A program made the translations under genes and the position numbers. 64,000 bases of DNA, from the NCBI GenBank assembly GCA_950295325.1, contig OX485803.1, positions 48,499,554 through 48,563,553 on the forward strand, written 5' to 3'. Position 1 is the stretch's first letter. Each line of letters begins with the position of its first letter. The notes below the pieces were generated by a model. It was given only the letters and a program-made list of their open reading frames with translations. It did no database searches and was not told the DNA's origin. This DNA comes from Polytrichum commune. Taxonomy: Eukaryota > Streptophyta > Polytrichopsida > Polytrichales > Polytrichaceae. Positions 21,641 to 58,874 of the stretch are shown one piece after another.

Positions 21641-24135
21641 GAACCGATCGAGTTTGAGGAATAAGCGGTTGAAGTTCAGGAAAATTACCGATCATGCAGA
21701 GGAATTTGAGGAATATAACCTCAAATTCATGAAGAAAGAACTGAAAAACGTGAACATGTCACCGATTTGATTTGGAAATGGATTCTGCCCCGACACGCTT
21801 CATTTGCAGATTTCTTTCCAGATTGCAGTTGTTGGGGATAGGGCCGCGCGAACGCGAGCCCCCGCTGCCACAAATTATGACGTGTATACCTCCCGGAGGA
21901 AGATACTGGAGTCACTCGGCCCGAAGTGCAATGGGGCAAGCTCCTCCAGGCCATCCACCTCCTGGATCATGGATGCGCCCCGCCCAGGTAAGTGGGTTCC
22001 GTTGTCTTCATCGGGGGGCTTTATTCTCACTCTCGTCGTCCATCGCATCCCCGGCCGTATGGGTTTTCTCAAATCTTTCTCCATCTTAGCAAGCGAGCAT
22101 GAGATCAACCGTGTGGAAGAAATTTTGCCCGAGCCTTGAAACTACAACGTCGCTTGATCGCAATCCTTGGCATTCAACCAGCATTCGAATGGTCCTCGTG
22201 CTTGCTTATGAACAGAAATAGTGATCGTTGTAGACATCGTTAACGTACTGTGGCAAAATGTTGTTGGGGTATTACAAAAGAATTCTGGAGAACACAGATC
22301 GCAACCCCAACCTCGATCTTCTTGAAGTTGGGTTTGGATGTATTTCCACGTCAGACTGTAGGGTTGTAAATCCGGCATGTGGGATGCCGGTTGGGTCCAA
22401 GTGTCATCCCCCGTGGAATAGTATATCTTTACTTTGCTGCAGTCTTTGGGTTTATTCAAAGACATACCATCCACCTCTCCTGCCTCGGCTCTTACAGTGC
22501 TCACCTCTGCGATACGCAACAATGTGTATGGGATAATATTTCTTGGCAGCATCGACGGTGTTTCTTGTGGGGAGCGGAGTTTGGGCCCAGCTCAAGCGAA
22601 TAAGTTATGTGACCCATCGAAATTACCTAAAAGTTGCAATGATATCTCCGATAGACCACACCCCTTTAATCTATGTAGCACAGTTTTAAAATGAATTCTG
22701 TAGATAGACGAAAGTGGTTCTCAACGTGGTCAACATGTCTGAAAAGCACAGAATCTGAGCTGTTTGCATGTCATTCTGGTTTCTCTCAAAGAGATCATGA
22801 CCTATGAATCACATAAGAATTGCATAAATGCTCCCAACCTGTAAGGTAGGGGAGAACCATGGCAGGGAACCACCAAAGATTTCTCACAATTTAATGGCAT
22901 TCGTATTTACTCCCGAATCTGGCCAAGTGTATATTTTATAGTTGAGATTGCTGAGCATCGTCGTAAGTTGGGCATGGCATTACAGACAGAAAGGAAACTA
23001 TCCTTCGAGTGGATTGATATTTTATTTCATTTCTCAAGCAACAAGTGAGTTCTTTGAAAAACATGCAGATGGAAGTGTTCAGCAGTGGAGGTGCCTGCTT
23101 AGTGTAGCAGCTCATTTTCGTGGAGTTTAAAAACGTGAGTGAAGGAAGGTACTGTAACTAGCCTCTTATTACATTCATTTGCTTAAGTAGTGTCTATGGC
23201 CACCTCCTGGTAGTTTCATACAAGTTATGCCGGTTCCTTAGGAACCAGCTGGTCAATATCATTCCTCAAACCTTCGCCACCACTGCAACATTCCACCAGG
23301 GACATGGATTAATCCAACTCCTTGAGTGTCTTCATCACAAAATCACGTACGGAAATCCAAAGGGTTTAACAACCTCGTACAAAACAAACCAGAAAGACAA
23401 ACCATGGTAACTCCTGATCGATTCCAACATGAGCCAAGAACCAAGCTCACCGTCTTAGTAAGGTTGAACGTTTGGTGATCCTAAGAGAGATCGATCATCA
23501 GATGGTATGTAGACATCCTCAAAAAAAATAACCACATTCTTCATTCTGTACATGAGTTGTGTTGTTGAGCTCATCACACATTTATCATCATCAGCTAAGC
23601 CCCGCCCCAATTTTTGTACACATTTCATACTGGAATCATGCATCTTTGGATTACTTCATTGGATCAGTGTCTTTATTTGCGGGGTTTTATACGTACAACC
23701 TTTGGTCCTTGGATCCCAACGCTACGGGGTTTCTCAAACATGAGCATCATGAACGCACCATGAATACGTTTTAAAGATGGAGGATGCATATCAGGAATTG
23801 AGCTTTCTTAGAACCATTTACCAACTCACTGCTACAATCTAGCTCTCCAATGCTTTCAAGCTTCACTCAAAGTATGGAGGTTGTTGAGATTGCTGAGCAT
23901 CGCCTCCAGGTGGACATGGCATGACAGATACAAAGAAAACTAAAATTTTCACACCTCCGCCTGGATTGACATTCTCTTTTGTGATCCATAGCGAATCTGG
24001 GAGACAAGATTAGATTCAAAACAACTATCACGGCTTCCGGAACTGTTCGAGTCGGCTTGCTCCGTGCTTTTCTTGATGCCCCCTAGGTCACTTCTCTTCG
24101 AGCATTCACTTAACTGGTTCTAACTGGTACAGGAA
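21640..24135. other. Gene-poor stretch with an internal duplication
   Basis: No intact gene was found. Segments at about 22943-23040 and 23880-23985 are diverged direct copies, sharing GAGATTGCTGAGCATCG and GACATGGCAT-like blocks. Some frames faintly recall a glycosyltransferase N-terminal half, but they are too broken to call. Confidence 0.4.
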
Positions 24136-24411
24136 ATGCACTGTTCTCTAGATATCTTCGAGGTTGCGCACTACAATAAGAAGCCCAGGGTTGATCACTC
24201 CCTGCGAGAACCAGACTGGAGTGCCTCTGATTTGATTATGCCCATGGAGTTGCCCAAGTATGTCATATCCGAAGGCGCCAAGGCTGTGACCAAACTAACA
24301 AGCGCTGACGTTATTCTTTCGTCTGCTCTGTACGAGATTCTGTTGTTTCAGAACGCCACCTTCGATATTGGGAAACCACGTCTACTTTGGAATACACTGC
24401 CCAAACTGTGA
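24136..24411 (+). pseudogene. Possible fragment of a family-1 UDP-glycosyltransferase
   Basis: An open stretch of 91 codons includes KAVTKLTSADVILSSALYEI. This recalls the segment of plant UGTs where a short helix precedes an (S/N)S-x-YELE-type motif. The usual YELE is changed to YEIL, and no PSPG box was seen downstream. Neighbouring sequence is full of stops. If the assignment is right, this is a relic; it could also be chance. Confidence 0.22.
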
Positions 24412-43891: not shown

Positions 43892-44440
43892 TTTTTATAT
43901 TCAACCATTCTTGGATTCAAGAATAGTTAGGAATTCATAATTAACACACACATATTTATGTATCATAGACCATAGAAAGCATGTCAATTACGAAGCATTT
44001 TTGGTTTAGTCTCAAACCTAGTTAGCGTTTGAGAAGTTTTGTTTGAATTTTGTGTTGAGAAAGGAGCATGAAGCTCAGAAGTATGAAATACAAAAGTTGA
44101 ATCCATTTGTGATGTTTCTTAATGTTGTTTGAGTGCTTTTTGTTCTTCAAGTTCATTTCTTGCAGTGAATTGCTTCCTGAGAAATCTCCACCACAAGCTT
44201 ATGACAATATTTCCTACATTTTATACAAGAGAAGGAACAATCACTGTGACCACCACACACGCTATTTCGCATAAACCTTTCTACGACTCAGATTTTTACT
44301 CGGAAAATCTAGAATGAGAAACTTATCAGGAGGAATTCGGTAAATGAATCTATGCACCAATTATAATTGGTTTGATCCAGGCTCACTTTAGAACAACTGA
44401 CTACAGTGTCCCGCGGAGTGGACATAATTCAAGCGAAGGT

Positions 44441-44456
44441 GGTGTTAAATAACACC
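44441..44456 (-). promoter_or_regulatory. Histone-type 3' hairpin of H2A gene 1
   Basis: In the mRNA sense this reads GGTGTTATTTAACACC: a perfect 6-bp stem, a 4-base loop, then ACC. It lies 39 bases past the stop codon. The same hairpin occurs at the same distance in the other two H2A genes. The 6-bp stem, 4-base loop, GG/CC base pairs and trailing ACC resemble the 3' stem-loop of replication-dependent histone mRNAs of animals and green algae. Confidence 0.7.
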
Positions 44457-44495: not shown

Positions 44496-45038
44496 TCAAG
44501 CGGAAACCTTCTTGCTGACGGCAAGTCCCTGAGAGCTTTTCTTCGGAAGCAAGATGGAATGAATGTTCGGCAGAACGCCTCCGTTCGCAATTGTCACGCT
44601 GCCAAGCAACTTGCTCAGCTCCTCATCATTGCGGACGGCAAGCTGCACATGTCGGGGCACAATCCGAGTCTTCTTGTTGTCCCTGGATGCGTTTCCCGCC
44701 AATTCAAGAACCTGCAAAATCATCCATTCTGCGTTTGACAAAAAGTTTCTAGAAATACGCCAACCTGCATAGATGATAAATACTAGAAGATCATCCCTTA
44801 AGAAAACCCTTTACTAAGAATGCAACGTCTGCAAAAAAAATCATGAGTGCAACAATGGCCTCACCTCAGCGGCAAGATATTCCAGCACGGCGGCTAGGTA
44901 TACGGGGGCACCAGCGCCGACGCGACTAGCGAACTTGCCAGCCTTGATAAGCCGAGCAATCCTGCCCACGGGGAATTGCAATCCCGCCTTGGTGCTGCGA
45001 GAAACGGCCTTCTTACCAACAGTCCTTCCTCGAGACAT
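44496..45038 (-). CDS. Histone H2A, gene 1
   Basis: This is a core nucleosome histone. Two exons (45038-44865 and 44711-44496) join at a phase-0 GT-AG intron between codons for ..YLAAE and VLELAGN, giving 129 residues. The histone fold is complete: [20 protein letters not shown], the [19 protein letters not shown] helix, the acidic-patch [10 protein letters not shown], and the docking segment [15 protein letters not shown]. The short tail ends in VSKKVSA. It has no SQ(E/D)phi motif and is therefore not H2A.X; it lacks H2A.Z features and the SPKK tails of H2A.W. The N-terminus [17 protein letters not shown] differs from the usual MAGRGK. Upstream lie CCAAT, TTCGCGC and CACGGATC. Confidence 0.96.
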
Positions 45039-47453: not shown

Positions 47454-47525
47454 TGTGGCTGCTGGGATTCGAGCCCAGGTCTCCACGGCCACAACGTGGA
47501 ATTCTCACCACTAAACTACAGCCAC
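47454..47525 (-). tRNA. tRNA-His (anticodon GTG)
   Basis: A 72-base cloverleaf. The acceptor stem GTGGCTG/CAGCCAC is fully paired and is followed by A. The anticodon stem CCACG/CGTGG holds the loop TTGTGGC with anticodon GTG. The T arm CTGGG-CTCGAAT-CCCAG is intact. The internal pol III A and B boxes are present. CCA is not encoded, as expected for a nuclear gene. The sequence matches the standard plant cytosolic tRNA-His as I remember it. Confidence 0.95.
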
Positions 47526-48990: not shown

Positions 48991-49433
48991 TCGACAACAT
49001 TCAATTCCTCTACACAATTGCTAAGCTGTTAGCAAGAAACATCAACTACATCCTGTTTGCGGAAGCAATTCTACTTTTTCATATTTTCTCATGCCTAAGT
49101 CCAGATTACAATTATGAAGACCACAGCACATTCACATGGATTAAATGTATTGATCTATTTACATTGTCTGAGAACACGGATATGATTCAATAGCATCGAT
49201 TGAAGGTGACCTGGGTATTTCATATTTGGCACTCAGGATTCACACAAATATGATCCTTGTCCGGCCCACTATACGCAACTCTCAATGAGAAGCATCAAGA
49301 TTGAACGCATAGGTAGTCTGGTCATCTGATGGCCATTTTCCAGGCTTTCACTGTGGGAGAACTGACTGTGTTTAGTTCAGTGCTTGTGGAATAGACAGTA
49401 TCCCCCAGAGTTGACGAAATCAAAGAGAAAGGT

Positions 49434-49449
49434 GGTGTTAAATAACACC
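49434..49449 (-). promoter_or_regulatory. Histone-type 3' hairpin of H2A gene 2
   Basis: In the mRNA sense GGTGTTATTTAACACC, followed by ACC, lies 41 bases past the stop codon. It is identical to the hairpin of gene 1. A second stem, GCTTC/GAAGC, lies between it and the stop at 49473-49490. Confidence 0.7.
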
Positions 49450-49490: not shown

Positions 49491-50056
49491 TCAAGCGGAA
49501 ACTTCCTTGCTGACGGCGAGTCCCTGCGCGCTCTTCTTAGGAAGCAAGATGGAGTGAATGTTCGGCAAAACGCCTCCGTTCGCAATGGTCACGCTCCCGA
49601 GCAACTTGCTCAGCTCTTCGTCATTGCGGACGGCAAGCTGCACGTGTCGGGGCACAATTCGGGACTTCTTGTTGTCCCTAGATGCGTTTCCTGCCAATTC
49701 AAGAACCTGCAAAATCATCCGTTCTGCGTCAGAGAACCATTTTCTAGAAACGTTCTTACAACTGGCGCAGCTGATAACTCCTACAACGTCATCCTTTGTT
49801 AGACACCTTCATTCACCGGAACGAACAAGAATGCAAAATGCGGAAGAAGAAAACAAATTCAAGAATACACCAACGGTCTCACCTCAGCAGCAAGATATTC
49901 CAGAACGGCGGCCAAGTATACGGGAGCACCAGCGCCCATACGAGTGGCGAACCTGCCAGCCTTGATGAGCCGCGCAATCCTGCCCACTGGGAATTGCAAC
50001 CCCGCCTTGGTGCTACGGGAAACGGCCTTCTTACCAACAGTCCTTCCTTGAGACAT
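49491..50056 (-). CDS. Histone H2A, gene 2
   Basis: Exons 50056-49883 and 49706-49491 join with the same phase-0 intron as gene 1 and encode 129 residues. It differs from gene 1 by a few residues: MSQGRTVG at the start, [14 protein letters not shown] in the loop-1 region, KKSRIVPRH, and a tail ending VSKEVSA. All histone-fold and acidic-patch residues are kept, so it should be functional. The ATG lies in a CAGGTGAAAATG context also seen in gene 3, where the CAG may be the end of a 5' UTR intron. Confidence 0.96.
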
Positions 50057-54899: not shown

Positions 54900-57800
54900 G
54901 CGGCCCGCCGTCGCCTGTGCGGTCCGCTCCGCTTTAAGGTTTCCGAGTCGAAACGGAATTCCTAACACTAACTTAATTTGATGTTTTAAACTACTTTAAG
55001 GATTTTAATTTTTCTTCTCAATTCTAAATAACCTACCTAACAATCTACCTATAAAGTATTCTACTTATTATGTTTTTCTTGGTCAAACCTATTATTTAAA
55101 CTTAAAACAAGGTTACTTAATATTTTAAGAAAATGTGGGCCGCGACAATGGGTAATATCATTTGTTCACACAAATCACATAAAATAAATCTCACTTCATA
55201 CATGATTTAGTGTGGGCCATTTTATAGGTTCACCTTTTTGCACTAATGTTTATCATTGTGGGGACATGATTAAAAAGAATGCATGTTATTGTGGGTTATG
55301 AATATTGATGTGACTCACAATAAACATGTGGCACAAGATTTCTAAATGTCATGCTACATCGAGTGCATGGTATAGTATGTGCATGAAAGAACATGACATG
55401 ACATGAATGAGGGAAAAAAAATCCTCAATAAAATAAATTACAACAATGTGAAATTCCAAATGATAACCCACTCCACCATAGCACCATGACAAACGTTCAA
55501 CAATTTGTGCGTGGAAATGTAAATCATGTGTGTGCCACATCAGCTATTCATGGGTTTCAATCAATAGTTATGTGACATTAGGCACTTCCACCTCATGAAC
55601 GATACAATGAATGGCAAAGTTGCCATGTTATATGATACAAAGATTAATTGGTGTAGTTGACTTACTTACTACAATGGGTTAGACCTAGAGTTCAGGTGGG
55701 GAGAGGGCCCCGTAGAAGAATGGTTTGAATACCAATGTGACCCACAATAAATACATGGCACATTCATTCTAATGGAACTCTAGACCTTAGATATATTGTC
55801 ATATGCACATCCACATAACATCATTCAAATTCATAATCGTGTTATGTGGGTTATGTGGGTTATGTGGGATTGATAATATTTCACATAAATATTTCCACAT
55901 TCAATCTGAATATGAAGAATATTCTATGAAATATTGTCAGTCCCATAGAACATTGTTATGAATCTGAATAATGTTATACTAACTAGTCATAAAATGTGAA
56001 ATAACTTGGTTGGTAAAAGAGTATAGTTACAATACCTTGGAACTCCAAATTATAACCCACATTACCGCAGTACGCTCACACATTTAACACTTGCCGAGTC
56101 AAAATGTAATTTCTTTTTGTGGCGCATCAGCTTATCAATGGGTTCCAATCACTAGTTATGTGACACGTGGCACTATCAATTCATAAATAGATTATTGTGT
56201 GTTGACAATGTCAATCATGGTCCAACAATTTTCAGATTATATCCGGTGTAGTTGATTGACCCGCTACACTCGCCTAGCCTTATAGTTGATCATGAAGGTA
56301 GATAGAGGATGTCATGGTAAAGAATGCAACATTTTCGGTGAGGTACTTGTTTCATAATTAGGAAAAAATAAAAAATAAAAAATAACGTAATATATGGTGG
56401 GTGGGTTTGATACACCAATTAACACCTACTTTGGTGGATTATGCCCTAACTTAGATTACACACAAGAGGAGAGTGGATGACAAGCCGAGTCAACACCAAT
56501 CAACTCATGAACATGATATGAAAAAATATGGATGATATTAGACCTCTGTGAATGACAAATCATGACGAGTTTTTATAATCCTTATGTTCTTGGATGAGAG
56601 ATTGGTTAGGATTTTTATTTTTTTAAATGAAATTCTATGTGCTTCACTACATCTATCTTCATTTGCAGAAAATGAATTATTCATATTGTGCTCACCTTAA
56701 TTAAAAGGTTGTTTTGAAACACAATCCCTTGTTACATAGCCTAACAAAGGACTGCATATACATAAACATATGATTTGATGTGGCCCATACTACTCTTGTT
56801 TGCCTAGAATAATTATCTTGCAATGAGAGAGAGTGTTGTTTCACATGTGTTGCTACATAATATGTAACAAAGACCCCAATACTACTTTTGGCACACCATT
56901 TTGAATGCCACACTAAATCATATGTTTATGGTCACTTTACACTAGAGCATGAGGGCCATTGACCCATAATATATAAAAATTTGTGATTGGTCAAGAAGCC
57001 ATAGACGGTCCAAGTTCACTTTCCAGTAGACCTTGAAAGCATGAGGGACTAAATGAAATTCAAATGGATGAAAATCTACGTGGCATCCTACATGGCAACA
57101 AGTGCAAAATGGTCCATGGTCTACTAGATATTGCATGACACCCATCAAAAAGAGGTGGGTCTAAAGCAAAACTTAGGGTTGTGGCAAGCAATCAAATTGC
57201 CATTGGCTCCTATAAATATTATAATGCCATGGTGAGGTCTTGGACTACTAACTAGTTTACATTGTCCATAAAATATGTTACAATCCCTTAATATGGTCTA
57301 CTTTCACTTTACACAAGAGCCCATCAATTGTAAAATTTGAATGTACCATATGAACTTTGGATGATTTTCAAGGGCCCTTAGATTTTCATGGTCACAACTC
57401 TTGGTCCATGCGTAAATCAACCCTTAGTGTAGTAAAACATCATTAGAAGCCTATTTGATCTTGTGGACCACAACCTCCATGCGCCATGTGAAGGATTATG
57501 TCTCAAATTGAATTTATGTTGATTTGAGGTAAGTATTTTATGTATATTGTATTAGAATGGTGAGCATTTTACATCAAAATGCAATTTTTTAGAAATCATG
57601 GTTTCACATTGCAGTTTACCATCTCATTTATAAAAATTTCTTTAGATATCAAGCTTAAAAGTACAACCAACAAATACTATCATATCCACTTTTCCAACTT
57701 GGATATTAAGCTAGGGCCATGCAAAAAGAAACCCAAAATGACCCACTCATCCTACATGACAACCAAGAAAGCCAACTTTCAATAGTCCAACACCACTCTT

Positions 57801-58250: not shown

Positions 58251-58254
58251 TGGT

Positions 58255-58270
58255 GGTGTTAAAGAACACC
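58255..58270 (-). promoter_or_regulatory. Histone-type 3' hairpin of H2A gene 3
   Basis: In the mRNA sense GGTGTTCTTTAACACC, followed by ACC, lies 41 bases past the stop. The stem is identical to that of genes 1 and 2; only the first loop base differs (C for A). The second stem, GCTTC/GAAGC, lies at 58295-58311 with a different 7-base loop. Confidence 0.7.
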
Positions 58271-58311: not shown

Positions 58312-58874
58312 TCAAACGGGAACCTTTTTGCCGACGGCCAGACCCTGTGCGCTCTTCTTAGGGAGCAAAATCGAGTGGATGTTTGGCAAGACTCCTCCAT
58401 TGGCGATTGTCACACTCCCTAGCAACTTGCTCAGCTCCTCATCATTGCGGACTGCAAGCTGCACATGTCGGGGCACAATGCGGGACTTCTTGTTGTCCCT
58501 AGATGCGTTTCCCGCCAATTCAAGAACCTGCAAAATTATCTTTTCTGCGTCAGATAGACAGTTTCTTAAAAAAGCCACAGCCTGATAACACCTACAACGT
58601 CATCCTTTGCGAGAAAAAAAATTCCTAACCTGCATCCGCCGGAACGAACAAGAATGCGAAATCCGCAAACATGAAATCACGGGTATAGCAATAGGCTGAC
58701 CTCAGCAGCAAGATATTCAAGAACAGCTGCTAAGTATACGGGGGCACCGGCTCCAACACGAGTGGCGAACTTGCCAGCCTTGATGAGGCGAGCAATCCTG
58801 CCCACGGGGAATTGCAATCCCGCCTTGGTACTGCGGGAAACTGCCTTCTTCCCAACTGTCCTTCCTCGAGACAT
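58312..58874 (-). CDS. Histone H2A, gene 3
   Basis: Exons 58874-58701 and 58527-58312 join at the same phase-0 intron and encode 129 residues. The N-terminus [17 protein letters not shown] matches gene 1. Loop 1 reads [14 protein letters not shown] and the tail ends VGKKVPV. All canonical H2A features are kept and no H2A.X, H2A.Z or H2A.W hallmark is seen. The intron donor is GTCAGC, in place of the GTGAGG/GTGAGA of the other two. It lies 8-9 kb from gene 2, in the same orientation. Confidence 0.96.

Follow-up and report, generated by a model that had tools for sequence, protein, structure and literature searches.

The 64,000-nucleotide (nt) stretch of DNA analysed here (the window) contains three histone H2A genes on the minus strand, and each of them is followed by the hairpin GGTGTT-NTTT-AACACC and the trinucleotide ACC. 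Sequence comparison across the genome indicates that this hairpin is a genuine RNA element, specific to histone genes and maintained by selection, and its putative binding protein, SLBP, is encoded in the same genome. Very probably, the hairpins mark where replication-dependent histone genes end in a bryophyte that has retained the ancestral SLBP/stem-loop pathway with a divergent stem and loop. The architecture and the partner protein argue strongly for membership in this pathway, while the animal loop consensus and the threshold of the metazoan stem-loop model RF00032 are not reached.

The first-pass annotation had described the hairpin with its ACC on all three H2A paralogues, 39 to 41 bases after the stop codon. 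A pattern search confirmed each of them in place, with measured gaps between stop and hairpin of 39, 41, and 41 nt for genes 1, 2, and 3, respectively. The hairpins lie at 44441..44456 (GGTGTT-ATTT-AACACC), 49434..49449 (GGTGTT-ATTT-AACACC), and 58255..58270 (GGTGTT-CTTT-AACACC), and their ACC flanks at 44438..44440, 49431..49433, and 58252..58254, all on the minus strand. The pattern GGTGTTNTTTAACACC, with up to two mismatches allowed, matched the window five times as compared to 0.22 expected, two of the five being the same palindromes on the opposite strand; GGTGTTNTTTAACACC followed by ACC matched three times without mismatch and never in 100 shuffles. Each hairpin folded into the predicted stem (-7.3 to -7.6 kcal/mol, z -3.4 to -4.7). 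The scan with RF00032 that had been proposed found all three at the correct place and on the correct strand, but with 17.6-19.4 bits (E 0.3-1.5), well under the gathering score of 34.

We then compared the three window genes pairwise, without gaps. Stem and ACC were 100% identical and the five bases 5′ of the stem 80-100% identical, whereas flank identity was 10-60% at -40 to -6 and 0-50% from +4 onward. Because stem and ACC are identical while the flanks diverge, shared ancestry alone is an insufficient explanation of the conservation.

Distribution of the hairpin among histone genes

The genome search covered the assembly of 408 megabases (Mb) in 64 contigs. GGTGTTNNNNAACACCACC matched exactly 36 times, as compared to 3 times for a reversed control. 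Three of these matches lie in the window and 17 adjoin PF00125 matches; the 16 others were read individually, 14 of them lying past a histone open reading frame (ORF; 4 H2A, 9 H4, 1 H1) and 2 not. In total, 34 of the 36 are found 27-70 nt past a histone ORF (7 H2A, 13 H3, 3 H2B, 9 H4, 1 H1, and 1 H3 pseudogene). The remaining two were treated as chance matches: C3:22423220 (L040) adjoins a CCHC-type gag-like remnant, and at C6:24918448 (L046) no histone ORF ends just upstream.

In its general form, the hairpin with its flank 3′ of canonical histone stops reads GGNNNUNNNNANNNCC-ACC. The intact canonical genes carrying the hairpin also number 36, a count separate from that of the exact matches, and again the hairpin lies 27-70 nt past the stop. 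The PF00125 search on its own did not find the H4 genes or the window H2A genes and was therefore complemented by protein searches; the gene numbers given below for each histone class are lower bounds, as the searches may miss genes. The annotation had suggested looking for the hairpin at other core histone genes, and we found it at other H2A genes, at H2B, H3, and H4, and also at H1. H2A occupies 11 places, with the hairpin in 7; the same hairpin was not found after the two H2A.Z genes, an H2A.X-like gene with an SQEF tail, and a divergent H2A. Among the 11 H4 places, all 10 intact genes carry it, one as the variant GGTGTT-CCTG-AGCACC with a U-G pair, followed by ACA, while a single pseudogene has a broken stem. 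H2B is present at 10 places: all five intact genes have the hairpin, two of them with five-base loops, and the other five are divergent fragments, of which only the window one was read. This fragment (24124-24411, plus strand; YNKKPRVD...YVISEGAKAVTKLTSA) lies in a 95-amino-acid open frame; open frames of this length with such fragments occur at three other places in the genome, and a repeated element may carry them. The hairpin follows 13 of the 14 full-length H3 ORFs. Among six H15-domain places, it was found only after the one with an H1-like tail rich in lysine and alanine, whose H1 match crosses a single TAG 5′ of the reading frame used, perhaps an exon edge; the hairpin was not found after the other five (L056-L060), where the inspected flank follows the stop codon of whichever exon was read.

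The hairpin is thus present at canonical genes and absent from replacement genes, with two limits, the end of a CenH3-like gene and a different hairpin at one H3.3-like pair. An H3.3-like gene, L019, lacks the hairpin. Another, L017, and its duplicate L018 (C1:36.6 Mb) carry GGGTTC-TTTT-GAACCC-ACC 52 nt past the stop of the intron-containing H3, which may be a chance occurrence or a variant stem. When replacement and H1-like loci were scanned with loops of 3 to 5 bases, the only other matches were distant ones with three-base loops, at +285 in L059 and +277 in L060. The CenH3-like L030 has no exact GGTGTTNNNNAACACCACC match on its contig C7, and the fetched locus stops before the last exon.

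A hairpin model, R1, was built from 26 hairpins, leaving out 10 of the 36 genes, two of these for their five-base loops. All 36 canonical genes scored 25.5-61.5 bits, including the 10 unused in building, 8 of which are close copies of used ones. On replacement-gene loci R1 gave at most 14.0 bits or no match (73 sequence sources scored). Elsewhere, it scored 17.4 bits on the palindrome antisense, 15.9 on other window sequence, 18.2 on L046, and 27.9 on L040, and on two histone pseudogenes 45.2 and 51.3 bits.

Hairpin anatomy, SLBP, and the downstream purine element

A 6-bp stem with a four-base loop stands shortly past the stop of all 36 intact genes, save for the five-base loops of two H2B genes. 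One U-G pair is the sole variation in the stem, which is preceded preferentially by AAT or AAC and followed by ACC in 34 of 36 genes (once by ACA, once by GCC), and the loop is ATTT in 12, TTAT in 10, and something else in the remainder. To limit redundancy, 15 genes with a flank identity of ≥0.6 to one already kept were dropped. In the 21 remaining genes, mean pairwise ungapped identity was 0.99 for the stem and 0.94 for ACC, as compared to about 0.26-0.30 for the outer flanks (0.26 at -40 to -21 and 0.28 at +28 to +60); the filter itself lowers flank identity within -25 to -1 and +4 to +33, and it does not extend to -40 to -26 or +34 to +60.

The architecture is that of the metazoan stem-loop/SLBP system: a 6-bp stem with a GG/CC base and a closing U-A pair, a four-base loop, an A-rich 5′ flank, an ACC 3′ flank (the animal consensus is ACCCA), a purine-rich downstream element, canonical histones as carriers, and SLBP. 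It differs in that the stem is GGUGUU/AACACC instead of the RF00032 consensus GGCUCU/AGAGCC, that the purine of the fourth pair is on the 5′ side, that loop base 1 is A, U, or C, that two H2B loops have five bases, and that RF00032 scores below threshold.

A search for the SLBP RNA-binding domain, which had been suggested for the same genome, was successful. The single PF15247 match in the genome spans two exons on C7, and these exons, joined over one intron, scored 113 bits. The joined domain matches solved structures of the histone RNA hairpin-binding protein, namely chains 4tux, 4tv0, and 4tuw from fly (E 7e-24 to 6e-23) and 4l8r from human (E 7e-20); the alignment retains RQKQIDYGKNT and HPRTP. 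The genome thus encodes an SLBP RNA-binding domain. Two of the outcomes named in the first-pass annotation as refuting its stem-loop interpretation, a genome lacking an SLBP homologue and other core histone genes lacking the hairpin, therefore did not occur, and the interpretation is supported.

Downstream of the hairpin, purines recur at a fixed spacing: among the 36 genes, 35 have a purine at +13 and 34 at +14, and 35 have a pyrimidine at +26 and 34 at +27. In the non-redundant set, 20 of 21 genes show the +13 purine, a level that none of 5000 shuffles reached at any position, while the most pyrimidine-rich column was matched by 56 of 5000. The purines at +13/+14 suggest, by analogy, the animal downstream element. 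A cleavage machine that, as in animals, gauges its distance from the stem would require such a constant spacing between hairpin and purines. In the window, the candidate elements are GAATTAT of gene 1 (44424..44430, minus strand), which lies 1 or 2 bases 5′ of the consensus spot, and GATTT of gene 2 (49417..49421, minus strand), which lies at +13. Strings resembling AAGAATTTGTATCAATTC are found downstream in H4 genes.

In some H3 and H2B genes, the downstream spot (GCTGGAAATG, TATGGAAAGC) weakly resembles AATGGAAATG, reportedly described by Ohtsubo and Iwabuchi in 1994 (cited in PMC7457121) as a 3′ element of wheat H3. The likeness is best at a fixed +9 and averages 4.2 of 10 letters, a value reached by 0 of 2000 sequence shuffles and by 138 of 2000 letter-permuted queries. 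Because so many permuted queries fit equally well, we keep it as no more than an idea. Wheat H3, a seed-plant gene, also differs in that its mRNA is polyadenylated.

By analogy with the animal pathway, SLBP binding, cleavage, the lack of poly(A), and S-phase control would follow from this arrangement. RNA polymerase would read through GGUGUU-NNNN-AACACC-ACC and the purine-rich downstream spot, and SLBP would bind the hairpin with its flanks. The cleavage factory that also serves polyadenylation, aided by a recogniser of the downstream element, would then cut a few bases past the stem. The mRNA would end in the hairpin instead of poly(A), with SLBP replacing the poly(A)-binding protein and coupling the message to S phase.

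Evidence against the pathway and alternative explanations

Several observations weigh against membership in the SLBP/stem-loop pathway. The animal loop consensus has U at loop positions 1 and 3, according to PMC6827988; of the 34 four-base loops, 19 have U at the first position and 19 at the third, and the consensus is thus not followed. RF00032 gave nothing at E ≤ 0.001 in the whole genome, where 75 of 91826 first-look candidates were scored and the model is weak for this variant. Of 15 intact hairpin loci, 12 obtained 21.4-28.4 bits from it and three (L033, L044, and L054) had no match, and no stretch scanned reached 34. A divergent version of the stem-loop had been suspected at the outset, and the low scores agree with this; moreover, the gathering score is a library threshold and not a feature of the mechanism. 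Window gene 3 lacks the +13 purine and any clear purine element, and in gene 1 the GAA is shifted 5′, so that the element is weakest within the window itself. The fourteenth H3, L016 (C4:40.34 Mb), is intronless and encodes a 99% identical protein, yet behind a duplicated C-terminal tail its hairpin is decayed: the outer pair and ACC are lost, and the GAAATG spot is still there. Conversely, the H3 pseudogene retains a perfect hairpin, and the gag-like remnant at L040 has a perfect hairpin-ACC with GAA at +13 to +15 and 27.3 bits with RF00032. To these are added the failure to find U7 components and the lack of covariation, which are discussed with the alternatives on which they bear.

A stricter form of the pathway reading would have a U7-type small nuclear ribonucleoprotein (snRNP) pair with the downstream element in just the way known from animals. 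The purines at fixed +13/+14 and the AAGAATTTGTATCAATTC-like strings in H4 genes speak for it. On the other hand, no U7 RNA (RF00066) was found above threshold genome-wide: the best of the 65 candidates scored, out of 90221 at first look, reached 22.7 bits (E 2), and the sub-threshold scores resemble those in 12 of 14 control genomes. At 18 of 19 Sm/Lsm places, the exons resemble SmB, D1, D2, D3, E, G, and Lsm1, 2, and 4-8; Lsm10 and Lsm11 were not recognised there. SmF and Lsm3 were not seen either, so that Lsm10 and Lsm11 may simply have been missed. We regard the animal-like U7 form as possible but doubtful; its odds overlap with those of the broader reading that contains it. Among the Sm-like exons, L067 (C6:21.53 Mb) is a second, diverged SmD3-like one, and the ordinary one lies elsewhere (L068).

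Alternatively, the hairpin could be a conserved stability or translation element of the 3′ untranslated region, bound by SLBP in mRNAs that undergo downstream cleavage and polyadenylation as well, either at all times or when the cell is not in S phase. The failure to detect U7 fits such dual 3′ ends. A position-constrained element past the expected cut site would, however, be superfluous if the hairpin acted only within a longer mRNA, and we consider this explanation unlikely.

Since the stem hardly varies, covariation is unusable as a test of an RNA helix: we detected none in the stem, which is invariant apart from the one U-G pair. The same invariance would be compatible with a palindrome acting as DNA, be it a transcription factor site, a cruciform, or a terminator. 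Its fixed orientation to the gene, the ACC that follows the stem in 34 of the 36 genes, the nearby stop codon, the A-rich 5′ flank, and the presence of an SLBP gene argue against this, and make a DNA element very improbable. Functionless inheritance by shared ancestry or gene conversion of tandem copies has a negligible chance: many histone genes are indeed close tandem copies and one H3 pseudogene keeps a perfect hairpin, but the element is common to five histone classes with flanks near background identity, and the hairpin is broken in the H4 pseudogene and decayed behind the one odd H3 copy.

In PMC6827988, plant histone mRNAs are generally called polyadenylated and stem-loop-free, with Volvox and Chlamydomonas as named exceptions. 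These algal 3′ stem-loops provide a precedent in the green lineage, although they belong to algae and not to land plants. Among the open-access papers listed, we found no report of SLBP or histone hairpins in bryophytes; subscription journals were mostly outside the scope of this search, and earlier reports may exist. Two lineage signals come from the genome itself: the dynein heavy chain domain DHC_N2 has 38 exonic matches, 34 of them above the cut-off, and L056, L059, and L060 encode H15-domain proteins with long arginine-rich tails that resemble sperm protamine-like linker histones. Together, dynein heavy chains and protamine-like H1 point to motile sperm and thus away from a flowering plant. 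The host is probably no seed plant and hardly a flowering one, and it is probably a moss. The contrast with seed plants drawn in the first-pass annotation therefore reflects lineage.

One tentative scenario, to which we give clearly less credence than to the pathway itself, is that land plants received the SLBP/hairpin histone pathway from algae and that bryophytes use it genome-wide for all five histone classes. Seed plants would have lost hairpin and SLBP, with their conserved 3′ element AATGGAAATG surviving as a relic of the downstream processing element; in the moss, either U7 would be dispensable or a guide that has escaped recognition would take part. If the bryophyte reading is true, a genome-wide hairpin set together with SLBP would place the loss of the pathway inside land plants. 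The switch between two modes of ending an mRNA would become datable and could be tested in a transformable moss, and poly(A)-selected moss RNA sequencing may undercount canonical histones.

Window gene structures and neighbouring features

All three window H2A genes have two exons and end in TGA. Reading on the minus strand, gene 1 comprises exon 1 at 44865..45038 (ATG at 45038) and exon 2 at 44496..44711 (stop at 44498-44496). Gene 2 has exon 1 at 49883..50056 (ATG at 50056) and exon 2 at 49491..49706 (stop at 49493-49491), and gene 3 exon 1 at 58701..58874 (ATG at 58874) and exon 2 at 58312..58527 (stop at 58314-58312).

Further features of the window also lie on the minus strand. A U1 small nuclear RNA gene was found at 21837-21995 (108 bits); by eye, the plant upstream sequence element was not recognised in the 155 bases 5′ of it. 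At 55864-55946, there is a match to the mir-1422 model RF04027 below threshold (38.5 bits as compared to a gathering score of 60). Last, a transfer RNA gene whose anticodon reads by eye as GUG (His) is located at 47454-47525, between H2A genes 1 and 2.
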